From positions 1 through 36,907 of the forward strand of contig JAJRTN010000052.1 in assembly GCA_024278275.1 (NCBI GenBank): a stretch of DNA of 36,907 bases. The letters are read 5' to 3'. Below, piece by piece: positions 17,440-36,907 of the stretch; positions within the stretch are counted from its first letter, which is position 1; every line of letters starts with the position of its first letter. The DNA is from Candidatus Hydrogenedentota bacterium (GTDB taxonomy: Bacteria > Hydrogenedentota > Hydrogenedentia > Hydrogenedentales > JAJRTN01). The position numbers were made by a program, and so were the translations under genes. The notes under the pieces are model-generated. The model saw only the letters and a program-made list of their open reading frames with translations, made no database searches and was not told the DNA's origin.

Positions 17440-20484
<3,045 letters not shown>

Positions 20485-20489
20485 TCCAT

Positions 20490-21878
20490 ATGGAAGCACA
20501 ATACGTGGATATACCCGAACCGCTGGAGAATATCCCCCCCCTGGCGGAAACGGACCACAGCTACGAATCCATTTCTCGCGCGGTGTGCGACGTGGTGCTG
20601 GAAAAGCCCATGCCCCGGCCCTGGTACCCGGTCTTTGGGGTGGGTAACCTGCTCCTGGCCGTCCTGGGCCTGAGTACCATGTACCTCTTTTACCGCGGCC
20701 TGGGCATCTGGGGCATCAACAACCCCGTGGGGTGGGGCTTCGCTATTGTCAACCTGGTGTGGTGGATTGGCATTGGCCATGCGGGCACCCTCATCTCCGC
20801 CATTCTCCTTTTGTTTCACCAGGACTGGCGCACGGCGATCAACCGTTTCGCCGAGGCCATGACCCTCTTCGCCGTCATGTGCGCGGGGATCTTTCCGCTT
20901 CTCCACGTGGGGCGGCCCTGGGCAATCTACTTCATCTTCCCCCTGCCCAACACCATGTCGCTGTGGCCCCAGTTCAGAAGTCCCCTCTTGTGGGATGTAT
21001 TCGCCATCTCGACCTATTTCACCGTGTCGCTCCTTTTCTGGTACACGGGACTCATCCCCGATTTGGCGACGCTCCGCGACCGTGCGCCCAGGGGAATACG
21101 CCGGACCATCTACGGCATTTTCGCCCTCGGCTGGCGCGGGTCCGCGCGACACTGGTTCCGCTACGAAATGGCCTACCTTCTAATCGGCGGCATGTCGGCG
21201 CCTCTCGTGGTGTCGGTGCATACCATTGTTTCCTTCGATTTCGCCGTGAGCGTCATCCCCGGATGGCATACCACCATCTTCCCCCCCTATTTCGTGGCGG
21301 GCGCCATTTACTCGGGCTTTGCCATGGTGCTCACCATCCTGATTCCCGTCCGGGAATGGTTCAACATGAAGGATTTCATCACCACGCGCCACTTGGACAA
21401 CATGGCGAAGGTCATGTTGGCCACGGGACTGGTGGTCGCTTACGGCTATTTCTCCGAAGCCTTCTATGCCTGGTACAGCGGCAATGAATACGAGCGTTTC
21501 ATGATGTCCAACCGCATGTTCGGCGGCGGGTACTGGTGGGCCTACTGGTGCCTTATGTTCTGTAACGTCCTGTCGCCCCAGTTTCTCTGGATCAAGTGGG
21601 TGCGCCAAAACCCCGTGCCGCTCTTCGTGGCGAGTATTGTGGTGAATATCGGCATGTGGCTGGAACGTTACGTCATCGTGGTGACCAGCCTCACACGGGA
21701 TTTCCTGCCCCAGGCCTGGGGCCAGTATACGGGCACCATCTTCGACTGGGCGGCCTACGTGGGGTCCATCGGGCTTTTCATCACCATGCTCTGCCTTTTT
21801 GTCCGCTTTCTGCCCATGATTTCAATCTTTGAACTGCGCGTGCAGCATCGGCAGATGCTGCGCGGCGAGCTGCGCTAA
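20490..21878 (+). CDS. actC: Alternative complex III subunit C (NrfD-like membrane protein)
   Basis: 462 residues of the NrfD/PsrC polytopic family, with about ten hydrophobic segments, beginning [18 protein letters not shown] after a 45-residue soluble N-terminus. It forms a quinol-binding membrane subunit of ACIII next to the Fe-S domain of ActB. Family-typical blocks [17 protein letters not shown] (conserved His in the second helix) and [17 protein letters not shown] are present. The ATG at 20490 is 6 nt after actB, indicating tight coupling, and actD follows almost at once. Confidence 0.96.
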
Positions 21879-21892
21879 GGAGAGTGCGCACC

Positions 21893-22471
21893 ATGACGGA
21901 TCACGCGCATGAAAGAAGTGGGAAAAAAGTCTTCGGCTTAATCGCCGAATTCGATGATCCCCAGGTTTTGCTGGAGGCCGCGGAAAAGGCGCACAAGAAG
22001 GGCTATCGCGATGTGGACGCCTATGCGCCTTTTCCCGTTCACGGGCTGGCGGAAGCGTTGGGTGTGCAAAAAACGAGGGTTCCTTTTTTCACGCTCATGG
22101 GCGGCATGACGGGGGCGGCCGCGGGCTTCGGTATGCAGTACTTCGCCATGGTCATGCACTACCCCTACAGTATTGGCGGTAAGCCGTTGAACAGTTGGCC
22201 CTCCTTCATTCCCATCACCTTCGAGCTGGCGATTCTTTTCGGCGCTTTCGCGGCATTGGGCAGCATGTTGGCACTCAACGGACTGCCCCGGCTGCACCAC
22301 CCCGTCTTCGGGGCGAAACGCTTCAACCGGGCCAGCAGCGACGGTTTCTTCTTGTGCATCGAGGCCACGGACCATTTGTACGACCCCGAAGGCACCCAAG
22401 GCTTTTTGAATGAACTGGGACCGGTCGAGGTTTCCGAGGTTGAGGATGATTCGGACAATGATGCCCATTAA
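21893..22471 (+). CDS. actD: Alternative complex III subunit D (DUF3341)
   Basis: 192 residues. A soluble N-terminal part (VFGLIAEFDDPQVLLEAAEKA, typical of DUF3341/ActD) is followed by two membrane helices (LMGGMTGAAAGFGMQYFAM and a second ending with FAALGSMLAL) and a soluble acidic C-terminus. It is a structural subunit of ACIII with no cofactor motif. ATG 21893 is preferred over a GTG at 21884 because TAAGGAG is well placed for it; the choice alters only three residues. Its end overlaps the proposed actE start. Confidence 0.93.
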   Translation: MTDHAHERSGKKVFGLIAEFDDPQVLLEAAEKAHKKGYRDVDAYAPFPVHGLAEALGVQKTRVPFFTLMGGMTGAAAGFGMQYFAMVMHYPYSIGGKPLNSWPSFIPITFELAILFGAFAALGSMLALNGLPRLHHPVFGAKRFNRASSDGFFLCIEATDHLYDPEGTQGFLNELGPVEVSEVEDDSDNDAH

Positions 22472-23177
22472 ACGCGGCGGATGGACAGGCAGGGCTTCTT
22501 TTGCAACGTTCGTTGCCCTCATGCTTCTGGGCTGCCACCCGGATATGTGGAATCAGCCCAGGTTCGGCCCGCATCAGAAAAACGATTTTTTCAACAACCA
22601 GAGCGCGGCGCGCGACCGGGTGCCCAATACCGTGCCCTATTCGGGAAAACGCAGACCTTGGCGGGCGGACACCTTCGCGGCCAACACGGGCAGGAAAACC
22701 GTGCCACCCGTGACGAAACAAGCCTTCTACACGGGCCGCAACGCCGATGGCGGGTTTCTTGCCGACAACTATTTCAAGGTGGACGCCGGTCTCGTCGCGC
22801 GGGGCCGGGAACGTTTCGCCATCAACTGCGTGCATTGCCACGGCATGTTGGGCGACGGCAACGGCATCATCACCAAGCGCGGATTCCCGAAAGCGGCGAC
22901 CTATCATATCGACCGTCTCCGCGAGGTGGAAGACGGATACATCGTGGACGTGATTCGTAACGGTTTTGGCCGAATGTACAGCCAGGCATCCAAGGTGGCC
23001 CCCGAGGACCGGTGGGCTATCGCGGCATACATCCGCGCGCTGCAACTCAGCCAGAACGCCGATATCACGGATCCCGACGCGCCCCTCTCCAAGGAGGTGG
23101 CGCGCCATTTGGCGGAACAACAGGCCGATACCGCCGCGGCGGCAACCCATGATGAAGCGAACAACCATGCTCACTAA
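22446..23177 (+). CDS. actE: Alternative complex III subunit E, monohaem cytochrome c lipoprotein
   Basis: About 243 residues. A lipoprotein signal ends in LMLLGC (Cys30), so the protein should be lipid-anchored by Lgt, whose gene is also in this window. One haem-c site, CVHCHG (Cys128 to His132), and a later Met (GFGRMYSQ) suggest a His/Met cytochrome c. It carries electrons from ACIII toward the oxidase. The start is uncertain among ATGs at 22446, 22458 and 22461; 22446 overlaps actD by 26 nt. The C-terminal end overlaps actF. Confidence 0.93.
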   Translation: MIRTMMPIKRGGWTGRASFATFVALMLLGCHPDMWNQPRFGPHQKNDFFNNQSAARDRVPNTVPYSGKRRPWRADTFAANTGRKTVPPVTKQAFYTGRNADGGFLADNYFKVDAGLVARGRERFAINCVHCHGMLGDGNGIITKRGFPKAATYHIDRLREVEDGYIVDVIRNGFGRMYSQASKVAPEDRWAIAAYIRALQLSQNADITDPDAPLSKEVARHLAEQQADTAAAATHDEANNHAH

Positions 23178-24375
23178 CGAACATTTACGAAAAATCGGCG
23201 GCCTCCGCGCCAGGGCGCTCGTGGTGGGCGCCATTGGAACGCTTCTGACGCTGACGGGTTTGTCACGCGGGATGGACGGCCTGTTTCAACCGCTTATCGT
23301 GGCCTACATGTTTTGGTTTGCCCTGGGCGTGGGGTGTCTGGCCGTGGTCATGTTGCACCACCTTTGTGGCGGCGCCTGGAGTTTCATGATACAGCGCATC
23401 TGCGAAGCGGGTTCGCGCACCCTTCCGCACTTCGCCCTGCTGGGCGCCTTTGTCTTCCTTGGCAGTGTCTACCTGTCCGATGTGTACCCCTGGACTGACG
23501 CGGAATATCTTGCCGCCCATGATGCCGCGTCCCGGAAAACGGCCTTCCTCAACGCGAACATCTTTACCATAGCCTATCTTGTGTATTTTGTCATCTGGCT
23601 GGCGCTCATGTTCCTCTACAATACGTGGTCCCGTGAGCTTGATAAAACGGGTGACGCGCGGATCATTGCGCGTATGAAGTTCCTGGCGGGGCCGGGTCTC
23701 ATCGTCTATGTCTTGTCCATGACCTTTGCCGCGACCCACTGGACCATGTCGCTGGAGCCCGAATGGTTTTCCACCATTTATGGTCCGTGGCTGATCGGCA
23801 GCTATGCCCTCGCCGCCGTGGCCTTCGCCACCATCGTCTTGTCCTATCTCCAGGATGTCCCGGAAATAAAGAAGAAGGTGACCGCACGGCATTTTCATCA
23901 TTTGGGCAATTTCATGCTGGGTCTTACCATTTTCTGGTCCTACACCTCTTTCTCCCAATTCCTCATTATCTGGAACGGCAACCTGCCGGAAGAGATCAGT
24001 TGGTACCTGAACCGTCAAGGCGGCGGTCTCACCTTCATGACGGTCCTGTTAATCATCTTCGTGTGGCTCGTGCCCATGTTTCTCCTCTTCATGCGGCCCA
24101 ACAAGCTGGACGTGGGCCGGCTCCGAAGGATTGCCTGTTACGTGCTGGCCATGCGTGCCCTGGACCTGTACTGGAATATCGTCCCTTCCTTTTCCGGGAA
24201 CGCGAACACGGTCAGCTTCTTCACGGTGGGCCTGGTGTTGGCGGCCATCGCGGGGATGGGCGGTTTCTGGATATGGGCCTTCCTGGGCGAGTTGAAAAAG
24301 CGTCCGCTCCTTCCGCGCCAGGATCCGCGCGCCACGCTCATGTTCTTGAAAGACGAGGCACACGACCATGCATGA
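23167..24375 (+). CDS. actF: Alternative complex III subunit F (membrane protein)
   Basis: 402 residues, an NrfD-like polytopic membrane subunit of ACIII paralogous in fold to ActC, with roughly ten hydrophobic segments (for example FALLGAFVFLGSVYLSDVY and FMLGLTIFWSYTSFSQF). The HFHHLGNFMLGLTIFWSYTSF block with its neighbouring FLIIWNGNLPEE is characteristic of ActF. ATG 23167 is chosen (MLTNEHLRKIGG), overlapping actE by 11 nt; ATG 23149 would add six residues. The next gene overlaps its end by 8 nt. Confidence 0.95.
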   Translation: MLTNEHLRKIGGLRARALVVGAIGTLLTLTGLSRGMDGLFQPLIVAYMFWFALGVGCLAVVMLHHLCGGAWSFMIQRICEAGSRTLPHFALLGAFVFLGSVYLSDVYPWTDAEYLAAHDAASRKTAFLNANIFTIAYLVYFVIWLALMFLYNTWSRELDKTGDARIIARMKFLAGPGLIVYVLSMTFAATHWTMSLEPEWFSTIYGPWLIGSYALAAVAFATIVLSYLQDVPEIKKKVTARHFHHLGNFMLGLTIFWSYTSFSQFLIIWNGNLPEEISWYLNRQGGGLTFMTVLLIIFVWLVPMFLLFMRPNKLDVGRLRRIACYVLAMRALDLYWNIVPSFSGNANTVSFFTVGLVLAAIAGMGGFWIWAFLGELKKRPLLPRQDPRATLMFLKDEAHDHA

Positions 24376-24799
24376 ATCCCGGGACAGCAGGAAAGCAGGG
24401 TATGAAGTCAGCGATATGCGGCCCGCGATTATCGTTCTGTTCGTGTCGGCCATCTTCATGCTGATGGTGGGAGGCGTCATCGGCGCGCTCTTTGTCCTGC
24501 GTGGTTTTGACCGGTCACGGACCCCGGAGATGCCACCGTCCGCGCTGGCGTCGGAAGTCGGACAAGTGCCGGAGGAGCCACACTTGCAACAGGATCCGGT
24601 GGCGGAGAAGGAGAAAATCCTGGCGGAGGCGGCGGCGCGGCTCAACAGCTACGGCCTGGTGAGCGACAATCCCGAAATGAAACGTGCCCATATCCCCATC
24701 GAACGCGCCATGGAACTGGTGGCTTCGGGCCAAGTGCCCTACCGCCAGACCCCCACCCCGGCCAAGAAGGCGGATGCCGGTACGACACCGCGGCCATAA
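24368..24799 (+). CDS. Small single-pass membrane protein of the act-cox cluster
   Basis: 143 residues: a short cytoplasmic N-terminus, one transmembrane segment (about 19-44, IIVLFVSAIFMLMVGGVIGAL), a Pro/Glu-rich linker, then a helical part with LNSYGLV and HIPIERAMELVASG, and a Pro-rich tail. The LNSYG ... IPIxRAMEL pattern is, from memory, frequent in small proteins encoded between ACIII and SCO genes, so an assembly or accessory role is plausible; the function is not known. It has no cofactor-binding motif. ATG 24368 overlaps actF by 8 nt. Confidence 0.8.
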   Translation: MHESRDSRKAGYEVSDMRPAIIVLFVSAIFMLMVGGVIGALFVLRGFDRSRTPEMPPSALASEVGQVPEEPHLQQDPVAEKEKILAEAAARLNSYGLVSDNPEMKRAHIPIERAMELVASGQVPYRQTPTPAKKADAGTTPRP

Positions 24800-24812
24800 G
24801 GACACGCCAGAC

Positions 24813-25955
24813 ATGAAAACCAAAAGCCTCAGCATAAAGAAGCAGTTGTGGAACCCGGAGCCTACACCCGGCGGGCCCGGGCTTCCGCCGGGCGTACACC
24901 CCGTGGCAGGGGCGGGTTTCCCTTCGACCGTTAACGGCGTGGGCCTTGTTCCGGCGGAAAGGCCTCGTGGCAAGGGACGGACCGGATCCTGTCCCTGCCG
25001 GGGGGGGGCTCCGGAACCCAGGAGGGCGCAAAGATGCTCCGCGTCTGTACGCCTGTTTCTGCCCGCACTTTTGATCTCTCTTCTCGCGGGACTTCCCGCT
25101 CATGCCCAGCGACAGGACGAAGCCAAGGTGGAGGAGGTGGGACTCGATCCCATTTCTTTCCGTCCGCCCGACCCGGTTGATCAATTCGAGGAAATCTATA
25201 TTGAGCAGAAGCTGGATGCCCCGGTTCCCCTCGACCTGGTCTTCACCGATGAAGAGGGGAAAGAAGTCACTCTGGGCAGTTTTTTCAATGACAAGCCCGT
25301 GGTGCTCTCCCTGGTCTACTATGAATGCCCCATGCTCTGTACCCTGATCCTGACGGGCATGGTGTCGGGATTCGACGGATCGGACAACACGCTGAACATT
25401 GGCGAAGATTACGAAGTGGTTACCATCAGCGTGGACCCGGATGAGACGCCCGAAATGGCGCGGGAGAAAAAAGCAGCCTATCTTAAACAATATCACCGAG
25501 ACGGGGGAGCCGAGGGATGGCATTTCCTTACCGGCAAGGAAGACGCCATCGAGGACCTGGCGCAATCGGTGGGCTTCCGCTACTACTACGACAAGGAGAC
25601 CGATCAGTTCGCCCATGCCAGCGGCATCATGATCCTCACGCCGGGGGGGCGCGTGTCGAGTTATTACCTCGGCATTGAATATCTCCCGCGCAACCTCAAA
25701 CTGGCGATCATGGATGCCGCGGACGGGCGTATTGGCAGCCTGGTCGAACAGTTGATCCTGCTTTGTTACGCCTACGACCCCGCCAAGGGTACGTATGGTT
25801 TCTATGTACTGAACGCGGTTCGCCTCGGTGGCGGCCTGGTGGTGGGCGCCATTGTCCTCTTCTGGACCCTCGCCTGGGCCGCGGGCCGGCGAAAGAAGCA
25901 TCGGCCTCCCGTGGCCGGCAAGGAAAATCACCCGGAAATCCCGGCCCACCATTAG
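24813..25955 (+). CDS. SCO1/SenC-type copper chaperone for cytochrome oxidase
   Basis: Delivers copper to the CuA site of oxidase subunit II. The thioredoxin-like domain has the copper ligands CPMLC (Cys172, Cys176) and the distant His268 (FAHASG), counted from ATG 24813; a C-terminal transmembrane helix (about 340-360) follows. The open frame has a strange 75-residue Gly/Pro/Arg-rich leader before a normal signal peptide (RLFLPALLISLLAGLPAHA). A near-ideal AGGAGG-8-ATG start is at 25018-25036, but that ATG is one base out of frame with the signal peptide; deleting one base between about 25037 and 25052 would give a normal signal sequence. Either the assembly has an extra base or the upstream ATG is used. 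The domain identity is firm, the start is not. Confidence 0.9.
   Translation: MKTKSLSIKKQLWNPEPTPGGPGLPPGVHPVAGAGFPSTVNGVGLVPAERPRGKGRTGSCPCRGGAPEPRRAQRCSASVRLFLPALLISLLAGLPAHAQRQDEAKVEEVGLDPISFRPPDPVDQFEEIYIEQKLDAPVPLDLVFTDEEGKEVTLGSFFNDKPVVLSLVYYECPMLCTLILTGMVSGFDGSDNTLNIGEDYEVVTISVDPDETPEMAREKKAAYLKQYHRDGGAEGWHFLTGKEDAIEDLAQSVGFRYYYDKETDQFAHASGIMILTPGGRVSSYYLGIEYLPRNLKLAIMDAADGRIGSLVEQLILLCYAYDPAKGTYGFYVLNAVRLGGGLVVGAIVLFWTLAWAAGRRKKHRPPVAGKENHPEIPAHH
24863..24999. repeat. Two strong hairpins in the proposed 5' part of the SCO gene
   Basis: Stem 1: CCCGGCGG 24867-24874 with CCGCCGGG 24885-24892, extended by three further pairs beyond one mismatch. Stem 2: 24969-24978 with 24991-24999, nine pairs with one bulged A. 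A run of nine G follows at 25000-25008. Such structure is more usual for intergenic DNA than for coding DNA. Confidence 0.5.
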
Positions 25956-25996
25956 CGTGTCCGAGAGCAACCCAGCAGGGCAGTAACAGACGCACC

Positions 25997-26932
25997 ATGT
26001 GGAACTTTCCTCTATTACCCGAACAGGCATCGGCCTACGCCGCGAAGGTGGATCCCCTCTTTTACGCATTGGCCGTCTTCGTGCTTACCTTCACCATGGG
26101 CGTGACCACCGTGTTTATCGTGCTGGGCGTGCGCTACCGCAAACGCCGGGGCGTTCACCGGAAGTCGGTCCACGTGGAGAACATGCTGATTGAACTGGTG
26201 TGGAGCGCCATTCCCGTGGTTATTGCCATCGCCATTTTCGCCTGGGGCGCCGTGCTCTATTACGATCACGGCAAAGCGCCCGGGGACACCATCGACATCA
26301 ACGTCATCGGCAAGCAATGGATGTGGAAAATACAGCACCCCAATGGCCTGCGCGAGGTGAACGAACTGCATGTCCCCAAGGGCCGGCCGGTGAAGCTCAT
26401 TATGACGTCGCAGGACGTGATCCACAGCTTTTATGTCCCCGCGTTTCGCAAGAAACAGGATGTCCTCCCCGCGCGCTACACCTCCCTCTGGTTCGAGGCG
26501 ACGAAAGTGGGGGAGTATCCCCTGTTCTGCGCGGAGTACTGCGGCACGGAGCATTCACTCATGGGCGGCACGGTCTACGTCATGGAGCCCTCGGACTACG
26601 AGGAATGGCTGGGCGGTGGGCCGGCCCTGACACCGGCGGCGGAAGGGGAAGCCATCTTTCAGAAGATGGGGTGCGCCACCTGCCACGACGCGGGGGATTC
26701 AAGCCGCGGACCAAGCCTTAACGGGCTGTACGGAAAAGACGTAAAACTTCGTGGCGGCGGCACGATTCCCGCCAACGACGAGTACCTTCGCCGTTCCATC
26801 ATGGAGCCCACGGCCGACGTGGTGGTGGGGTATACACCACTCATGCCGGCCTTCAAAACCCAATTTAACGAAGACGATATTCTCAGCCTGCTGGCCTACA
26901 TCAAGTCACTGGGCGGCGGTACGCAGGAGTAA
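25997..26932 (+). CDS. coxB: caa3-type cytochrome c oxidase subunit II with fused cytochrome c
   Basis: Takes electrons from ACIII or cytochrome c and passes them through CuA to subunit I. 311 residues: two N-terminal membrane helices (about 20-45 and 62-85), a periplasmic cupredoxin domain with CuA ligands His143, Cys178, Cys182, His186 and Met189 ([12 protein letters not shown]), and a C-terminal cytochrome c domain with CATCH (Cys226 to His230) and a later Met in PLMPAF. The fused haem c makes the enzyme caa3-type. ATG 25997 begins [12 protein letters not shown]; the ribosome site is weak. It lies 41 nt after the SCO gene and 2 nt before coxA. Confidence 0.96.
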
Positions 26933-26934
26933 CC

Positions 26935-28593
26935 ATGTCCACCGAACACCTTGTCGAACCCTCGGCCGATTTCCCGGTCCGCGATTACGGGCCGCCCCGG
27001 GTACACTACCTGAACTGGCGCCACACCATAGCCTCCTGGCTCCTGTCCCGGGACCACAAGCGCATCGGCATCATGTACCTCGTGTCCATCAGTATTTTCT
27101 TCGTGGTGGGCAGTCTTTTCGCCGCCATCTTCCGGCTGGAGTTGCTGACCCCCGAGGGGGATTTCCTGCAAGCCGACACGTACAACAAGTTCTTCACCCT
27201 CCATGGCGTGGTGATGATCTTCTTCTTTCTCATCCCTTCCATCCCGGCCGTGCTGGGCAATTTCCTCATTCCCCTGATGATCGGCGCGAAGGACGTGGCC
27301 TTCCCTAAGCTCAACCTGGCCAGTTGGTACATCTTCATGGTGGGAGGAACCATCGGCGTTGCGATCATCCTGTTGGGCGGTTTGGACACGGGCTGGACCT
27401 TTTACACCCCCCTGAGTTCCAGTTATGCCAACACCCACGTGTTCCTGGCCGCCATGCTGGTGTTTATCACCGGATTCTCCTCCATTCTTACGGGGCTGAA
27501 TTTCCTGGTGACCATTCACAAAATGCGCGCCCCCGGCCTCACGTGGTTCCGTTTGCCCTTGTTCATCTGGGCTCACTACGCCACGAGCGTCATCCAGGTC
27601 CTGGGCACCCCCGTGCTGGCGATCACGGTCTTCCTCGTGGGCATCGAGCGCATCTGGGGCGTGGGTATCTTCGATCCGGCCCTGGGCGGCGATCCCATCC
27701 TTTTCCAGCATATGTTCTGGTTCTACTCCCATCCGGCGGTGTACATCATGATACTGCCCGGCATGGGCGTCATCAGCGAGGTCATCGCCTGTTTTTCACG
27801 CAACCGCGTGTTTGGCTACGAGTTCATCGCTTTCTCCAGCGTGGCCATTGCCATCATCGGCTTCCTCGTGTGGGGGCACCACATGTACGTGAGCGGACAG
27901 TCCATGTACGCGAACCTGGTTTTCTCCCTGCTGACCATGCTCGTAGCCGTACCCTCGGCCATCAAGATCTTCAACTGGACCGCAACCCTCTACAAGGGCA
28001 ATGTGATCTGGGAGACCCCCATGCTCTACGCCGTGGGTTTCATCGGTCTCTTCGGCATTGGCGGCGGCACGGGGCTTTTCCTGGGCACCACGGGGCTCGA
28101 TGTGCCACTCCACGACACCTACTTCGTGGTGGCCCATTTCCACTATGTCATGGTGGGCGGCATGGTGATGGCCTACCTGGCGGGTATTCACTTCTGGTGG
28201 CCCAAGATCACGGGCAAAATGTACGCCCAAACCCCCGCGAAAATCAGTGCCATCGTTGTCTTCGTGGGATTTAACTTTACCTTCTTCCCCCAATTCCTCG
28301 CGGGATGGAACGGCATGCCCCGGCGTTACCACTCCTACAACGCGGACTTTCAAATCTGGAACGTGCTCTCCACCGCGGGCGCCACGGTGCTGGGCATCGG
28401 CTTTCTCATGCCGGCCTTTTACCTGGGCTGGTCCCTGTTCTTCGGAAAGGACGCCGGCAGTAATCCCTGGGGCGCGCGAGGGTTGGAGTGGGAGGCCTGC
28501 ACCTCTCCTCCCATTCCCCACAACTTCGAGGAAATCCCCGTGGTGACGCAAGAGGCGTATGCCTACACCGGAGAGGAGACCGTCAGTGTCTAG
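26935..28593 (+). CDS. coxA: Cytochrome c oxidase subunit I, A2-type haem-copper oxidase
   Basis: Catalytic subunit that reduces oxygen to water and pumps protons. 552 residues with about twelve membrane helices. Visible ligands: His90 (low-spin haem), His266 (CuB) with Tyr270 of the His-Tyr crosslink, His315-His316 (CuB), and the HFH pair at 401/403 (haems). The helix VI motif is YSHPAVY: the Glu of A1 oxidases (GHPEVY) is absent and Tyr264-Ser265 take its place, the hallmark of A2-type oxidases such as that of Rhodothermus. The stop overlaps the GTG start of coxC. Confidence 0.97.
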
Positions 28594-29272
28594 CCTGGAT
28601 TCACACGCGGATAATCCCTATCTCGCCCATCATTTTGAAACGGAGGAGCAACAAACAGAATCCTGCACGCTGGGGATGTGGCTCTTTCTCGCCCAGGAAG
28701 TCATGTTCTTTGGCGGACTCTTCCTGGCCTACGCCATCTACCGCTCCCTTTACCCGGAGGCCTGGAGCGCGGGCAGCCACACCCTGGACGTGGTCGTGGG
28801 CGGCATCAACACGGTTTTCCTCTTATTGAGCAGCTTCACCATGGCCATGGGCGTCTACTATGCCCAGACCGGCAAACAGAAACAGTTGGCCCTCATGCTG
28901 CTGGCCACGCTGGCCCTGGGAATCACCTTCGTCACGGTGAAGTGGTTCTTCGAATACGCCCCGAAGATCGAGGCCGGTGTGTTTCCCGGCAAACTGTGGG
29001 CGCCCAACCCGGCGAACCACCATTACGGCCAACTGGCCTTTTTCGAGGGGCAGGGCCTACAAATGTTTTTTCTCCTTTACTTCGTCATGACGGGTATGCA
29101 CGCCCTGCACATGATCATCGGCTTCGGTATCTTGCTGGTGCTCATCGTTATGACCATGCAGGGAAAGTTTCACGCCCAACGCTACCTGCCCATCCTCTTC
29201 TTCGGCCTCTACTGGCACTTTGTCGATATCGTATGGGTGTTCCTTTTCCCCATGTTCTACCTTGTTTCCTAG
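28586..29272 (+). CDS. coxC: Cytochrome c oxidase subunit III
   Basis: 228 residues with about five membrane helices (for example [20 protein letters not shown], and a final [16 protein letters not shown], both family-typical). It is a structural subunit that stabilises subunit I. The start is GTG 28586, overlapping the coxA stop by 8 nt, with GGAGAGGAG just upstream; the longer frame from 28559 is less likely. It is translationally coupled to coxA. Confidence 0.95.
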
Positions 29273-29288
29273 CACGGAGCCGACCATC

Positions 29289-29618
29289 ATGTCCGAACAC
29301 CATATCGTCACCCCAAAAACCTACCTGAAGAATCTTGCCGTCCTCATGGTGCTCATGGCCCTCACTATCATTGCCGCAAAATGGCCCGTACTCCATATCA
29401 GCCAGACCGTCAACCTGGCCATGGCGTTGACTATCGCCGTGGCCAAGATGATGTGCATCATTCTCATCTTCATGCACGTGAAGTTCAGCAGCCGCCTGGT
29501 GATGGTCTTCGCCTCGGCGGGTTTCTTCTGGCTTATTATTCTTTTGACCCTCACCTTCTGCGACTATGCCAGCCGCTTCTGGCACTCCCCCACGGCGGTC
29601 TCGCCGTACCTGGGGTAA
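29289..29618 (+). CDS. coxD: Cytochrome c oxidase subunit IV (bacterial type)
   Basis: 109 residues with three hydrophobic segments (LAVLMVLMALTIIAA, LAMALTIAVAKMMCIILIFMH and FASAGFFWLIILLTL). The AxxKMMCIILIFMHVKFS block matches the prokaryotic COX IV family (Pfam COX4_pro). It is a small accessory subunit. The ATG at 29289 follows CGGAG, and the gene sits 16 nt after coxC. It is the last gene of the cluster; a hairpin-rich non-coding region follows. Confidence 0.9.
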   Translation: MSEHHIVTPKTYLKNLAVLMVLMALTIIAAKWPVLHISQTVNLAMALTIAVAKMMCIILIFMHVKFSSRLVMVFASAGFFWLIILLTLTFCDYASRFWHSPTAVSPYLG

Positions 29619-31601: not shown

Positions 31602-32591
31602 ATGAATCCGTACCGGGCGTTGACGGCGGAAGAGACGATTACCCACGATTTCGAGCAATTATCGAACACGCGGCCCGTGCGGGTGTTGACGCATCTCTTT
31701 GACCAGTTGGACGGCACCCCGGCCAAGGTTTCCGCGGACGATGAATGTATTTGCGGACGGTGTTATCGCATCTCGGACCGCCATGAGGTGGTGGCCCATG
31801 ACCATGATCATTATGAGATCAGCCTGATCATCGGGGGCACGGCACGGCACTACACGGCCATGTATGAATCGGTCTTGAAGCGGGGCGATGTGATCGTGGT
31901 GGCTCCGGGCAAGGTGCATGCTTTCAGTGACATGGACGGCCTGGCCGTCGTGAACTGCATCTATCTCACGGAATGGCTGCTTCATGATGTGCGCGATATC
32001 TGGACGCTTGAAGGACTGATACCGCTTTTCCTGGCGGCGGGGATGCTGGCGCATCCGGAAAACCCCTGGATTCCTCAATATCAGCTCATCGAGGAAGAGT
32101 TTCATGCCTGCTTACGGGAAATGCGGGACATGGGCCGGGAGTGGGAACGGGAGGAGCCCTCACGCATTTACATGAAATGCAGCATCGAGAAGATGATGCT
32201 GACGTTGGGTCGGGCCTTCGCACGTAGTGGACTGGGCGAGACGCGGCTGGCCGCCCAGGCGGAAGTGCAGCAGGCCCTGGAGCGTATCGAAGACCACGTG
32301 GCCAATTGCCAGGTTTTCCGCGTGGCTGAATTGGCGGGACATATCGGTATGTCGCCCGATTATTTAAGCCGCGTATTCAAGGAAGTGACGGGCTGGAGTC
32401 CCATGGATTATTTTCAACGCCGGCGGATTCAGCATGCGTCCTGGTTGTTGCTCAACGCGAACCGGTCCGTAACGGAAGTGGCCCATACGCTGGGTTTTTT
32501 TGACTCGGCACATTTTTCGCGGCTCTTCAAACGCCACCAGGGCCTCTCGCCCCGCGCCTACCGGAAGCGGTACCGAAGCGGGAAGAAGTGA
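31602..32591 (+). CDS. AraC-family transcription regulator with N-terminal cupin domain
   Basis: 329 residues. The N-terminal part has a cupin sensor pattern (HDHDHYEISLIIGG ... RGDVIVVAPGKVHAF), probably binding a small molecule such as a sugar. The C-terminal 100 residues contain two helix-turn-helix motifs: VAELAGHIGMSPDYLSRVFK, then VTEVAHTLGFFDSAHFSRLF with the closing GLSPRAYRKR of the AraC/XylS family. CAGGAG lies upstream of ATG 31602. It is divergent from DUF1559 and convergent with the corrinoid cluster, so either could be its target; the ligand is unknown. Confidence 0.93.
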   Translation: MNPYRALTAEETITHDFEQLSNTRPVRVLTHLFDQLDGTPAKVSADDECICGRCYRISDRHEVVAHDHDHYEISLIIGGTARHYTAMYESVLKRGDVIVVAPGKVHAFSDMDGLAVVNCIYLTEWLLHDVRDIWTLEGLIPLFLAAGMLAHPENPWIPQYQLIEEEFHACLREMRDMGREWEREEPSRIYMKCSIEKMMLTLGRAFARSGLGETRLAAQAEVQQALERIEDHVANCQVFRVAELAGHIGMSPDYLSRVFKEVTGWSPMDYFQRRRIQHASWLLLNANRSVTEVAHTLGFFDSAHFSRLFKRHQGLSPRAYRKRYRSGKK

Positions 32592-32595
32592 ATGA

Positions 32596-32634
32596 GGAAG
32601 TGAGAAAAGGGATTTGTACTATCTCCTCACTTCC
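32596..32634. terminator. Possible shared terminator of convergent genes
   Basis: GGAAGTGAG (32596-32604) pairs exactly with CTCACTTCC (32626-32634) around a 21-nt loop. It sits in the 35-nt gap between the AraC-type gene and the minus-strand gene, overlapping the latter's stop codon. Poor T-tracts make this a moderate call. Confidence 0.35.
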
Positions 32635-33358
32635 GTTTGTCGCGGCGAAAACAGTTTTCCATGGTGCAGATACTGCATCCGCTGGCACGGTGCTTGACGC
32701 GCGCCCCAAGGGCGAACACGCCGCTGACGGATTTCATGGGTTGCATGATGGCGGACTCGCCGAGGGTGACGCCGCAGAAGCCTTCGGGAAACAGGGTGAA
32801 GAGTTGGTGTTGTTCCGCGAGTTTCCAGTCGCAATAACCGGGGCCATAGCGGGCGGATGCCCGCCACTCCATGGGCTTCACGGCCGCCTCCACGTCGCGG
32901 AGCAGTTTGTCGGCGGCCCGTTCCACGATCTCGGAACCAAGGGCGTCGATCAGACAGGCGCGGAAGGGGTCGCCCGTGGCGGCGACGGCCCTCATCCATT
33001 CCTGGTACCCGGCCCCGGCGGTAACGAGGTAGACGGCCAGAGCGTCGGCGTGCTTCAGGCCCAAAGCAATGATGCGCCCCGCGTCAAAGTACTGGTCGTC
33101 CACCTCGAAACCGGTCTCCAAGATTCGTACCCGGGGAGTGCTGCACAGCACATAGCCGCCGATCATCTCGACGCGATGGCCGGCCTCCTCAAGAACATCG
33201 GTCAGGAGGGCCTCGAAGGGTTCAGGCACCACGCCGTCGGCATAGCCCAGGGCGCGTGCCACCATGGCGGCATCAAGATGAAGTTCGGCAAAGGGGATGG
33301 ATACCTCGGATGCCGGGGGGAGGGGAGTGTCATCGAGTTGGATCAATGAACCGGACAT
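32627..33358 (-). CDS. MetH-activation-domain protein (corrinoid reactivation)
   Basis: 243 residues related to the AdoMet-binding activation domain of cobalamin-dependent methionine synthase. The signature RASARYGPGYCDW corresponds to the RxxxRYSxGYP loop that binds AdoMet, and LTFLFPE-like LFTLFPEGF follows. The C-terminus carries CSICTMENC, a three-Cys cluster that could bind a metal centre. In free-standing form such proteins are thought to help reductively reactivate corrinoid proteins. ATG 33358 is preferred; the longer frame to 33541 is probably not translated. It follows the corrinoid-protein gene by 115 nt and a strong hairpin, consistent with one functional unit. Confidence 0.85.
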   Translation of the reverse strand: MSGSLIQLDDTPLPPASEVSIPFAELHLDAAMVARALGYADGVVPEPFEALLTDVLEEAGHRVEMIGGYVLCSTPRVRILETGFEVDDQYFDAGRIIALGLKHADALAVYLVTAGAGYQEWMRAVAATGDPFRACLIDALGSEIVERAADKLLRDVEAAVKPMEWRASARYGPGYCDWKLAEQHQLFTLFPEGFCGVTLGESAIMQPMKSVSGVFALGARVKHRASGCSICTMENCFRRDKRK

Positions 33359-33393
33359 GGACGGGTTCCCGAAGGACCATACACAGAAACCCA

Positions 33394-33425
33394 CCATGAG
33401 CCCCGCGTCGCTTTGGGGCTCATGG
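33394..33425 (-). other. Strong hairpin between corrinoid and activation genes
   Basis: An 11-bp perfect stem (33394-33404 with 33415-33425) and a 10-nt loop, in the gap between two minus-strand genes. It lacks a T-tract. It may set the relative levels of the two products by processing or partial termination. Confidence 0.45.
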
Positions 33426-33473
33426 CGGTGAATTGCACCAAACAGATTCTTTTCGCGTGACGGAAGGCCCTGG

Positions 33474-34142
33474 TTACGCCTCGGCTGTCGCCAGGTAGTC
33501 AAGCGCGCCCTGGGGGTCCGGCGAATAGGCATCGGCGCCAATCTTGTCGGCGAATTCCTGGGTTAGGGGCGCGCCGCCCACGAGCACCTTCGCCTTCTCG
33601 TCGATGGCCTTTACCTGCTTGACCGTTTCCTCCATGTTCACCATGGTGGTGGTCAGCAGGGCGCTGAGGCCGACGACGCAGCCGGGATGTTCCTTGACCG
33701 CTTCGACGAATTGCTCGGGGGAGACGTCCACGCCGAGGTCAACCACCTCGTAGCCGCCGCCCTCCATCATCATGCGGACCAGGTTCTTGCCGATGTCGTG
33801 CAGGTCGCCGCGCACGGTGCCCACCACGAACACGCCCTTGTGCGTGGCCGCGCCGGAGTCGAAGGCCGGTTTGAGGTGATCCATGCCCGCCGTCATGGCC
33901 TTTGCCGCCATGAGCAGGTCGGGGACGAAAACCTCGTTGTTGCTGAACTTGCGGCCCACATTGCTCATCCCGACCATGAGGCCCTGGGTGAGAATATCGT
34001 TGGGATCCACCCCGTCGTCAAGGGCTTTGCGGACAAGCTCGTCAACGCCATCCTGTCCCCGCATGTCGGGGGGATAGGGGGAACCGGCGTTCATTTTCCC
34101 CCGTTCACAGCACGTCGCAATTTGTTCCAGGATCTCGGACAT
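33474..34142 (-). CDS. Methyltransferase corrinoid-binding protein
   Basis: Carries the methyl group on a B12-type cofactor between methyltransferases. 222 residues: a helical cap domain (about 30-95, LTQGLMVGMSNVGRKFSNNEVFVPDLL), then a Rossmann-like B12 domain with the DLHDIG motif (113-118) whose His115 should ligand cobalt, followed by SALLTTTM and GGAPLTQEFADKIGADAY. This is the MtbC/MttC/MtaC-like layout. The ATG start at 34142 follows an AGGAGA site. It has its own promoter immediately upstream. Its neighbours are two URO-D proteins upstream and an activation protein downstream, so it likely serves both methyl transfer and reactivation. Confidence 0.95.
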   Translation of the reverse strand: MSEILEQIATCCERGKMNAGSPYPPDMRGQDGVDELVRKALDDGVDPNDILTQGLMVGMSNVGRKFSNNEVFVPDLLMAAKAMTAGMDHLKPAFDSGAATHKGVFVVGTVRGDLHDIGKNLVRMMMEGGGYEVVDLGVDVSPEQFVEAVKEHPGCVVGLSALLTTTMVNMEETVKQVKAIDEKAKVLVGGAPLTQEFADKIGADAYSPDPQGALDYLATAEA

Positions 34143-34172
34143 TACAGAAATCTCCTGTTAAGTTGATGCCGC

Positions 34173-34200
34173 ATTATAGCATCTGTCAGCCAAAAAACAA
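34173..34200 (-). promoter_or_regulatory. Sigma70-type promoter of the corrinoid-protein gene
   Basis: Read on the minus strand: TTGTTT (34200-34195), a 16-nt spacer and a perfect TATAAT (34178-34173), about 30 nt before the start codon. The -35 box overlaps the T-tract of the upstream terminator. Confidence 0.6.
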
Positions 34201-34219
34201 GGCCCCGTCCCATGCGGGG
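34192..34219 (-). terminator. Probable terminator after the URO-D pair
   Basis: A 5-bp GC stem (34203-34207 with 34215-34219) is followed on the minus strand, after a few bases, by TTGTTTTTT. It lies about 60 nt after the stop of the second URO-D gene. The stem is short, so termination may be partial. Confidence 0.45.
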
Positions 34220-34279
34220 TGTTAAACGTCTGCATGGCATTGCCGGCAAAAGTTGAAACCGGTCTTTTGTCCGGTGGCG

Positions 34280-35356
34280 TCATGTATAGGAACCCAGGGA
34301 GAGCCCGAGGTCCACGAAATAACGATAGGTCTCGTAACTCACCTGGTTCGGTATGGAATGGTCCGAATGCAGGGTATATCCAAAGTTTCCCTTGACCACC
34401 GGGATCTTGGCCTCCAATTCACGCCGCACGGTGTCCCGGTTGTTCCCGTACAGGGTGCGCACATCCATGCCGCCCATGAAGGACAGGCGATCGCCATAGT
34501 CGCGGTAGAGTTCGAGCAGGTCCATGCCCGCCTTCACCTCGATTACCTGGAGACAATCCACGCCCGCTTCGATCATGCCCGGCACCAAGGGCGCCACGTA
34601 GCCGCAGGAGTGCATGATGACGGGCAGTCCCCTGGCGTGAGCGTACTCGATGGTGGCTTTGTGGGCGGGCTGGATGATCTCGCGGTACATGTCGAGGGAG
34701 ACAAAAGGGCGGCCCTTGAAGCCCATGTCCTCGTAGAACCAGATCGCGTCGGGAAGCCCCTCTTCCTCGAAGAGCATGTCCATGAGGTCCAGGGTAAGTT
34801 GAGCGTAGGTGGCCACCATGTCCTTCACCCAATCAGGGTCCATGGCCATGCCCATGAGCATGTATTCATGGCCGCAGACGGGATGCATCATCTCGAAAAC
34901 GTTCACCCCGGCCCAGCAGAAAAGCCGCTGTTTTTCCGCGGCCAGGCGCCGGGTATCGCGGTAGGTTTCACGCGCAATACGCCGGGGGTCCGGCGTGAGG
35001 AAGGGTTTGATGTGCTCTTCCCAGCCGGCGCGATCCTGTACGAGAAAGTCTACATGTTCGGGGGTGCTGTCGTGCTGCTTGTGCTGGCGAAGCAGCGCGC
35101 CATTGCCGTCTCGTGTGAGGATGGTCTCTTCCGTTTCTTCGACAACCTCCGGCTCGTAGTCCAGTCGGGCGACCATGTTGAAAGGCCATGCGTTCTGGAT
35201 GTCAAAGCCGAAATGGTCCTCCAGGCTCGTGCCGGCTTCGATGTGTCCCTGGGCGGTCCACTCCGAAAGGGTGTCGCCCCAGAAATGCTCGAAGAGACCG
35301 ATGCGGTCCACCGGTTTCCGGGCCAGGATGCGTTGCATGCGCTCGATGCTGGTCAT
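34280..35356 (-). CDS. URO-D-family protein, probable cobamide methyltransferase (second copy)
   Basis: 358 residues of the uroporphyrinogen decarboxylase superfamily, outside the HemE branch. MHSCGYVAPL carries His249-x-Cys251, the start of the zinc motif used by MtaA/CmuA-type methylcobamide:thiol methyltransferases; LFCWAGVNVFEMM and FYEDMGFKGRPFVS are typical of the group. With the adjacent corrinoid gene it probably moves methyl groups to or from the corrinoid protein; the substrate is unknown. ATG 35356 is preferred (AAGGCGG upstream); an open frame runs far upstream but overlaps the preceding gene. It starts 10 nt after that gene, so the two are co-transcribed. Confidence 0.85.
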   Translation of the reverse strand: MTSIERMQRILARKPVDRIGLFEHFWGDTLSEWTAQGHIEAGTSLEDHFGFDIQNAWPFNMVARLDYEPEVVEETEETILTRDGNGALLRQHKQHDSTPEHVDFLVQDRAGWEEHIKPFLTPDPRRIARETYRDTRRLAAEKQRLFCWAGVNVFEMMHPVCGHEYMLMGMAMDPDWVKDMVATYAQLTLDLMDMLFEEEGLPDAIWFYEDMGFKGRPFVSLDMYREIIQPAHKATIEYAHARGLPVIMHSCGYVAPLVPGMIEAGVDCLQVIEVKAGMDLLELYRDYGDRLSFMGGMDVRTLYGNNRDTVRRELEAKIPVVKGNFGYTLHSDHSIPNQVSYETYRYFVDLGLSLGSYT

Positions 35357-35366
35357 AATCGCCGCC

Positions 35367-36533
35367 TTAATACTTGGGTGTTCCGCCCACGCGAAAGAGG
35401 GCGCGCTTGCGGTCAAGGTAGTGCAGGTAGTGGGCGTAGGGCACGTTCGCCGGCACGCGATGGTCCACCGTGGGGATGAATCCACCTTCCTCAAAGACCG
35501 GCCGCAGCCGTTCGAGTTCCGCGTCGATGGCTTCTTTGGACTCGGCCAACACCATCTTGCAGACGCCGCCCCAGAACTTGATGCGCCGCCCGTACCTGGC
35601 GCGGAGGGCCACCGGGTCGGTACCCGCGTGTACCTCCACGGGGAACATGGTGTTGAGGCCGTTGTCGAGAAAGATGTCCACAATGGGATTGATGTTGCCG
35701 TCGGTGTCGGTGGTGTAAACGCAACAGCCGTGGGCCACGAGCAGGTCGGCCACGCGGCGGTACCAGGGTCCGGCGGCCTGGCGCATGAATTCGGGCGAAA
35801 TGATGGGGCCGCTGTTGAAACAGATATCCTCCCAGCCCATGCCCGCATCCACCTGTACCCGGGGCAGGGCCTTCTCCAGCACCCCCACCGTGCAGGCCCC
35901 GAAGGTGTCGATAATCTCCGTCAATAGCTCAGGGTCTTCATAGGACATCATGGCGATGCCTTCGAAGCCGATGAAGTTGCGCGCCATGCCCACCATGCTC
36001 CCCGCGAAGATGGCAATGGGAACCGTGCTGTCTTGCAGTGCCTCAATGGATGCCTCGAAGTTTGTCCACCGTTCGGGCGCCTCGGGGTCGAGGGCCGCCT
36101 TGAAAGGTTCCCAACTGGCGCGGTCCTTGATGGGGAAGTCGAGAAAGTGGGGGATGGACTGGTCGCCGTGACGGTTGATCTCCGCCACGCATCCGTACGG
36201 GTCCCGGTAGACCTGCCGGTCCTCGGTTTCCTCCAGGATTTCATGCTCGCAGATGGGAAGGGGGCCGGAATTGACCCCCACGACGGCGAGGTTCTCAATG
36301 CCGAAGTAATCGTAGGCCGTGGCCTCGTCCACCACATGATCGGGCAGTCCCTGGCCGTGCCAGCTTTCCAGCGTGCGGGCCCAATAGCCGAACTCGAAGT
36401 TGGGCGCCGCCGCCACCTCCTGGAAGAACATGGTTCGCCGAAACCGCTCGCGGAGTGTCAGTGATCCCGCGGCCCGCCTTGGGTCGGCCCCGGGGCCCTG
36501 TTCTATCCAGCCGTCGATTTCCTCGAAATCCAT
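35367..36533 (-). CDS. URO-D-family protein (first copy)
   Basis: 388 residues, same superfamily as the next gene. It starts with an N-terminal extension, then LRERFRRTMFFQEV, and the conserved second half has DAGMGWEDICFNSGPIISP and HGCCVYTTDTDGN. The His-x-Cys (HGC) pair is kept but no obvious third Cys ligand follows, so zinc binding is less sure. It may be a substrate-side methyltransferase acting on the corrinoid protein, or a non-catalytic relative. ATG 36533 is preferred (GGGAGAAGGGG upstream); ATG 36551 would add six residues. It is the first gene of the two-gene URO-D unit. Confidence 0.82.
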   Translation of the reverse strand: MDFEEIDGWIEQGPGADPRRAAGSLTLRERFRRTMFFQEVAAAPNFEFGYWARTLESWHGQGLPDHVVDEATAYDYFGIENLAVVGVNSGPLPICEHEILEETEDRQVYRDPYGCVAEINRHGDQSIPHFLDFPIKDRASWEPFKAALDPEAPERWTNFEASIEALQDSTVPIAIFAGSMVGMARNFIGFEGIAMMSYEDPELLTEIIDTFGACTVGVLEKALPRVQVDAGMGWEDICFNSGPIISPEFMRQAAGPWYRRVADLLVAHGCCVYTTDTDGNINPIVDIFLDNGLNTMFPVEVHAGTDPVALRARYGRRIKFWGGVCKMVLAESKEAIDAELERLRPVFEEGGFIPTVDHRVPANVPYAHYLHYLDRKRALFRVGGTPKY

Positions 36534-36672
36534 GTCCCCTTCTCCCGCCATCGCGCCGGGGTACAGGCCCGGCCCGCATGAAGCGGGCGCGATTATACAG
36601 ATCCGGTGATGAATATCAAATTACGTGGCGCCCCGTTTTTGGGGAGAGGCCCGGGAAAACCGTTCACGCCTT

Positions 36673-36907
36673 TCATTCCCGTGGGGCGCACGGGGGGCAG
36701 CCCTTTCCCCAAGGGTTGTGCGTCCCGCCGTCGAGGTCCAGACGTGGTGGCCAGGGCCCACCCTGATACTCCTTTAACCCGGTGAGGGCGATGCCTTCGA
36801 CGATGTGGCGCTGGAAAAGGAGGAAGACCAGGAGGGCGGGGGCGGTGCAGATGGTGGCGGCGGCGAGGGTGAGGCCGTATTCCAGGTAGTACGAGGTCTG
36901 GAACAAC
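36673..36907 (-). CDS. Sugar ABC transporter permease (MalG type), 3' end only
   Basis: The last roughly 77 residues of a carbohydrate ABC permease; the gene begins beyond the right edge. The segment YGLTLAAATICTAPALLVFLLFQRHIVEGIA is the final membrane helix and the FQRxxVEG end of MalG-like permeases, which import sugars with a binding protein and ATPase. Normally the protein ends a few residues later, but here the frame runs on for about 30 Gly/Pro-rich residues, perhaps because an ancestral stop was lost. Confidence 0.8.
   Translation of the reverse strand, partial: LFQTSYYLEYGLTLAAATICTAPALLVFLLFQRHIVEGIALTGLKEYQGGPWPPRLDLDGGTHNPWGKGCPPCAPRE

Follow-up and report, generated by a model that had tools for sequence, protein, structure and literature searches.

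Proteins of the uroporphyrinogen decarboxylase (URO-D) superfamily are established as primary methyltransferases of corrinoid systems in the form of CmuA, MtvB, OdmB, VdmB, MtoB and CdmB, and some URO-D methyltransferases, such as CdmB and the Moorella O-demethylase, are zinc-independent (PMC13222342). A rule has also been put forward by which ligand sets with fewer Cys residues suit oxygen better than sulphur (PMC10418091). Here we describe a set of four genes from a Candidatus Hydrogenedentota genome, located in a window of 36907 bases that is a complete contig (C9), which brings together two URO-D proteins (uroD1 and uroD2), a corrinoid protein that serves as methyl carrier, and a stand-alone protein resembling the activation domain of MetH. 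The original prediction held that one of the URO-D proteins might carry out the substrate step and that this would amount to a distinct pathway. As URO-D substrate enzymes are already known, such a step alone is not a new pathway; the principle is established, and it is this enzyme branch and its many-to-one layout that are uncharacterised. By analogy, our best reading is that the set is a URO-D-fed counterpart of the MtgBCDE hub of Ruegeria pomeroyi (PMC12478193), with exits to folate and probably to methionine.

The four genes lie on the minus strand between positions 32627 and 36533, confirming that these components occur together, and are separated, from uroD1 to the activation gene, by 10, 137 and 76 bases:

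35367..36533, minus strand: uroD1, URO-D superfamily, 388 amino acids (Pfam PF01208, 35 bits), likely substrate:corrinoid methyltransferase
36533, minus strand: ATG start of uroD1, preceded by a GGAG-like site; an alternative in-frame ATG at 36551 is possible
34280..35356, minus strand: uroD2, URO-D superfamily, 358 amino acids (Pfam PF01208, 59 bits), likely substrate:corrinoid methyltransferase
33474..34142, minus strand: stand-alone corrinoid (methyl carrier) protein, 222 amino acids (PF02310 and PF02607)
32627..33397, minus strand: stand-alone MetH-activation-like protein, 256 amino acids (PF02965, 41 bits), likely corrinoid reactivator

We consider it highly probable that this set functions in corrinoid-dependent methyl transfer, and probable, with less assurance, that the URO-D proteins are its primary methyltransferases. 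We infer that one or both of them would demethylate a substrate, most likely at an oxygen atom of a carbohydrate-linked compound, and load the methyl group onto the Co(I) of the corrinoid protein; carrier oxidised to Co(II) would be reactivated by the stand-alone activation protein and by an activase of the RACo type. The carrier would be a single hub, which many of the roughly 38 other non-HemE URO-D paralogues of the genome probably also load. The methyl groups would leave to tetrahydrofolate, via a fusion of a methyl-tetrahydrofolate:corrinoid methyltransferase and MTHFR encoded on contig C80, and/or to homocysteine, via enzymes of family PF02574, to give methionine. As a whole, this module of URO-D entry, carrier hub and folate and/or methionine exits seems to us reasonably probable.

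That the set is present and conserved across the order is certain. The order-wide counts refer to 60 genomes of the order (Candidatus Hydrogenedentota), the relatives found by the genome scan being mostly metagenome-assembled genomes (MAGs) of Candidatus Hydrogenedentota. The carrier has an invariant D-x-H-D-I-G cobalt-ligand motif, scores 194 bits against the corrinoid protein 1y80 and 205 bits against NCBIfam corrin_MtgC_2 (under the cut-off of 370), and is the sole stand-alone corrinoid protein of the genome, the other B12 proteins being MetH and one radical-SAM B12 protein. Its orthologues are present in 47 of the 60 genomes at 52-79% identity, normally in a single copy in addition to MetH. 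An examination of gene neighbourhoods, which had been proposed as a check, showed that uroD2 and the carrier remain adjacent across many genera, at 66-80% identity, and the set is therefore not a chance arrangement. In most long loci uroD2 is directly upstream of the carrier, and in several families uroD1 is directly upstream of uroD2. Together with the operon itself, this synteny supplies the cognate corrinoid protein expected of a URO-D primary methyltransferase. Thus, the idea of a URO-D substrate step stands as the most likely one, but uroD1, which had been singled out for it, is not the obvious choice, since uroD2 is more often beside the carrier. In the G004, G014 and G037 lineages the carrier is flanked by other URO-D proteins that are just 22-24% identical to uroD2, one of which resembles MtaA/MtbA (111-123 bits, under the cut-offs). 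A carrier that remains constant while the adjoining URO-D proteins vary is what would be expected if the latter were substrate-specific. MtaB lies within the carrier cluster in six relatives and is present in 18 of the 60. The view that a standard methyltransferase is missing holds for MtaB, which is absent from this genome (96% complete); the MttB- and MtmB-type families were not searched.

The relationship of the two URO-D proteins to characterised families was addressed with a 59-row maximum-likelihood tree, which left out OdmB, MtvB, VdmB and MtoB, CdmB being compared via a profile match only. The HemE of the genome, encoded on contig C88 (TIGR01464, 289 bits), clusters with that of P. aeruginosa (100/100), and MtaA, CmuA and some relatives share a wider group with HemE. 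Both uroD1 and uroD2 fall in a separate supported clade (100/98) with paralogues on C30, C140, C163, C13, C26 and C177, and group with neither MtaA, CmuA nor CmuC. Direct sequence searches of the PDB with the single proteins gave no useful match, so that a profile of the paralogues was needed; this profile matches MtaA, and its match to CdmB is weak. The AlphaFold2 models (pLDDT 91 for uroD2 and 77 for uroD1) both match UroD and MtaA in Foldseek, MtaA (4ay7) being the best match of uroD1 among solved folds. These models and the Pfam matches predict for both the URO-D fold expected of such a primary methyltransferase. In the paralogue-profile alignment, the putative ligands of uroD2, H249, C251 and H333, fall on the His-x-Cys and Cys of MtaA, and those of uroD1 would be D276, D278 and H358. 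What had been described as an incomplete zinc motif in uroD1 is better seen as a consistent D276-T-D278...D357-H358 set, which is invariant in all eight aligned orthologues.

The activation protein, which is related to 1j6r of T. maritima, keeps the R-x-x-P-G-Y stretch of MetH and has an added C-terminal Cys cluster, GCSICTMENC. It adjoins the carrier gene in all nine genomes with a strong match, and the MetH of this genome is a full-length protein that includes an activation domain. It is thus unlikely that MetH needs the stand-alone protein, which most likely serves the carrier. Genomes without RACo have the activation protein more often than the others (5 of 9 versus 4 of 38, p=0.007); in this genome a RACo-type activase is encoded on contig C197, outside the operon.

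With regard to the exits, the genome has three kinds of PF00809 match, namely DHPS, MetH and a 799-amino-acid MTHFR-DUF5981-Pterin_bind fusion (C80:65974-68373; L097:3975-6374) that is unlinked to the operon and whose pterin part resembles methyl-tetrahydrofolate:corrinoid methyltransferases. The same domains occur in another order in a Gemmatimonadetes MAG (L347:2903-5509), beside a carrier, DUF1638 and a URO-D gene. Of the 19 uroD2-carrier loci of relatives, 10 have a homocysteine methyltransferase gene (PF02574) adjoining the carrier, and genomes with the carrier tend to have a second PF02574 gene (p=1e-4, 60 genomes). Apart from MetH, this genome has two PF02574 copies, both outside the operon: a YitJ-like protein on C80 and a gene on C30 that is followed, after about 50 bases, by a URO-D gene with a uroD2-like H-x-C...DH motif (L076:4655-6680). 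The latter pair could form a demethylase/methionine unit of its own.

Few genes are as highly multiplied in these genomes as the URO-D genes without a known role, of which several genomes have about 40 or more. The present genome has 41 matches, HemE being one of them, versus one stand-alone corrinoid protein. That this carrier is common to most of the paralogues is, in our estimate, close to evenly balanced, leaning slightly towards the negative. The disproportion between some 40 paralogues and one carrier, and the presence of a folate-side methyltransferase and RACo elsewhere in the genome, lay outside the view of the original prediction. Searches of the open-access literature found nothing on URO-D expansions in Hydrogenedentota or on URO-D-mediated sugar O-demethylation.

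Outside the order, uroD2 forms a tight family, 64-77% identical, in Bacillota, Chloroflexota, Armatimonadota, Lentisphaerota, Spirochaetota, Planctomycetota and others. The supposition that it always adjoins a carrier proved wrong outside Hydrogenedentota, and no gene neighbour of uroD2 recurs to any great extent in the other phyla. A separate stand-alone carrier is encoded elsewhere in 42 of the 47 genomes whose uroD2 locus lacks one, which is a raw count without a background rate and includes at least two Hydrogenedentota genomes (G063 and G073). The exceptions are G064, G072, G087, G091 and G099, where there is MetH alone, a fragment, a long fusion or no such protein. In many genomes of other phyla the carrier is beside or near RACo, as in the homocysteine methyltransferase-RACo-carrier run of Anaerolinea thermolimosa; in Clostridia it adjoins a PocR-AraC regulator. 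In a Ruminiclostridium MAG (L298:2403-6520) a homologue of uroD2 precedes genes for CobT and an activase of the RACo type, which ties uroD2 to corrinoids outside Hydrogenedentota. Cultured bacteria having a close uroD2 homologue and a stand-alone carrier are A. thermolimosa and Caldicoprobacter oshimai.

Clues to the substrates come from the surroundings of the paralogues. Their same-strand neighbours include GH28, GH38 and GH2 proteins, a sulfatase, two xylose-isomerase-like proteins, an aldose epimerase, Gfo/Idh, two sugar-binding ABC proteins and an MFS transporter; enrichment is not established by this list, because the neighbourhoods were selected visually and genes of these kinds abound in the organism. 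The AraC-family regulator that converges on the operon has one relative of 63% identity in the part of the genome examined (L061:6712-7701), located on contig C78 between two URO-D genes on opposite strands (L061:5234-8781). These neighbourhoods make O-methyl carbohydrates the leading guess rather than a result, and we regard carbohydrate substrates as a tentative assignment, more doubtful than the sharing of the carrier. Still bolder, and in our opinion unlikely, is the full proposal that the expansion consists of substrate-diversified O-demethylases for methylated sugars and polyols that share one carrier, the methyl groups being split between folate oxidation and methionine synthesis. If true, there would be a B12-dependent route, distributed across many phyla, for the demethylation of methylated glycans, and, if the carbohydrate link is right, the removal of methyl groups from sugars would be joined to the supply of methionine. 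One carrier tied to a multitude of URO-D genes without a known role would also provide a single handle for testing them.

Several observations weigh against the proposed module. The clade of uroD1 and uroD2 is uncharacterised, and its metal ligands, as aligned, are variant. The two proteins score just 29.2 and 21.4 bits against TIGR01463 (MtaA/MtbA/CmuA), versus a curated value of 235.4, and the His-Cys-Cys zinc-ligand pattern is not found, the alignment giving H-C-H for uroD2 and D-D-H for uroD1, compared with HIC...C for MtaA. The presence of the carrier in 46 of 52 genomes with at least two URO-D genes versus 1 of 8 with fewer favours the module, but the significance of these counts (Fisher p=3e-5, 60 genomes) is inflated because they ignore ancestry, with family f4 accounting for five of the eight low-URO-D genomes. 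In six genomes with many URO-D genes no carrier was found; five of these have a carrier-bearing congener, which makes incomplete assembly plausible, although not proven. The remaining 39 URO-D matches of the genome, HemE included, are not beside the carrier and might act otherwise. On the side of the exits, the C80 fusion is whole in this genome only (1 of 60); folate is hence a likely exit here, and a folate exit as a rule for the order was rejected. Finally, a close homocysteine methyltransferase of the c3 type was not found in this genome, which has just the two more distant ones.

It is conceivable that uroD1 and uroD2 act at the other end of the module, transferring the methyl group of the carrier to a thiol or another acceptor as MtaA does, with the substrate step left to MtaB in some relatives and to further URO-D paralogues in this genome. 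The fold and profile matches to MtaA would suit such a role, as would the MtaB gene in the cluster of six relatives and the unusual conservation of uroD2 across phyla, which fits a common step. However, in the other phyla it is the homocysteine methyltransferase and RACo that adjoin the carrier, not uroD2, the carrier of the G004, G014 and G037 lineages has other URO-D neighbours, and the third Cys ligand of thiol methylators appears as His in the alignment. No coenzyme M system turned up, in the course of work that included no search aimed at one. We therefore judge this exit role to be improbable. Slightly more credit is due to the possibility that the set is a variant of a split methionine synthase, which would mainly make methionine, the URO-D proteins replacing the folate module as methyl source; we still consider it unlikely. 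The carrier, activation and homocysteine modules match those of MetH, the latter adjoins the carrier in relatives and its second gene co-occurs with it, and MtgBCDE (PMC12478193) and the three-part synthase of P. inhibens (PMC5764234) are precedents. Yet the genome still encodes a complete MetH, activation domain included, as well as the YitJ-like protein, and its homocysteine methyltransferases are outside the cluster.

A more radical alternative is that the URO-D expansion has nothing to do with methyl transfer, the paralogues being, for example, sugar-acid lyases or decarboxylases, and the pairing in the operon incidental. Their distance from the carrier, their proximity to carbohydrate genes and the loss of the H-x-C motif in many of them point in this direction, but the order-wide synteny and co-occurrence, the co-occurrence across phyla and the Ruminiclostridium uroD2-CobT-RACo run do not, and we find this the least credible of the three. 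That uroD1 and uroD2 are ordinary heme enzymes, i.e. copies of HemE, is refuted: the argument for it is only the Pfam name, whereas neither protein matches TIGR01464 at E<=0.001 and the tree that had been proposed as a check places both outside the HemE clade, with the HemE of the genome in its own place.

The surroundings of the set in the window comprise the following features:

31602..32591, plus strand: AraC-family regulator (PF12833/PF02311), convergent to the operon
36592..36619, minus strand: sigma-70-like promoter, TTGATA-16-TATAAT, upstream of uroD1 (11 of 12 matches)
36673..36906, minus strand: 3' end of a possible MalG-type sugar ABC permease (sequence EGIALTGLKE), truncated by the contig end

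The promoter-like site is weak evidence, because chance alone would give 1.7 sites of this kind in the region. The possible permease has a weak NCBIfam MalG match (E=0.007) and no Pfam match; because the window is a complete contig, this gene upstream of uroD1 is cut and the sequence past the contig end is invisible. At 17509-29618 the window encodes a fused molybdopterin-like/Fe-S subunit that is QrcB/QrcC-like, as in alternative complex III, followed by more respiratory genes and a cytochrome c oxidase set, which amount to an aerobic respiratory chain located upstream of the corrinoid genes. Among the relatives, L115, L205 and L206 of family f7 have a codon use so unlike that of the others that a gene finder trained on other relatives found no genes in them.

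Comparison with described systems places the set among known arrangements without equating it with any of them. The methanol system MtaBC is distinguished by MtaB, which this genome does not have. TM0269 of Thermotoga maritima (1j6r) is likewise a stand-alone MetH-type activation protein, but here MetH has an activation domain of its own and the stand-alone protein sits with the carrier. The chloromethane system CmuA/CmuB/CmuC (pCMU01) shares a URO-D domain as primary methyltransferase, a folate exit and an aerobic host, but CmuA fuses the URO-D and corrinoid domains and CmuB is MtrH-like. Type 1 mlp clusters (PMC10418091) also have several URO-D genes beside one corrinoid protein and no folate methyltransferase in the cluster; however, the ligands of Mlps are His-Cys-Cys and their clusters include a Ram/RACE gene, whereas the operon here has none and RACo is encoded on C197. 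The Cdm, Mto, Odm, Vdm and Mtv systems (PMC13222342, PMC8630106) similarly combine a URO-D primary methyltransferase with a separate corrinoid protein, a folate-side methyltransferase and an activase. They differ in that here methyltransferase II and the activase are outside the operon, the MetH-activation-like protein is inside it, and many paralogues are beside carbohydrate genes.

The closest likeness is to MtgBCDE of R. pomeroyi (PMC12478193), where one corrinoid hub in an aerobic host is served by donor-specific methyltransferase(s), several donor enzymes per carrier having been proposed, with exits to folate (PF00809) and homocysteine (PF02574) and RamA-type activation. The donors there are PF06253 proteins of the MttB type, up to seven, versus about 40 URO-D paralogues here, and the present genome keeps a complete MetH and has a PF02965 activator beside or instead of RamA. 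The PF02574 module is part of the clusters of relatives, whereas this genome has, besides MetH, only the C30 and YitJ-like C80 copies outside the operon; the stand-alone carrier and, unlinked on C80, the PF00809 folate-side methyltransferase of such a system are both present.

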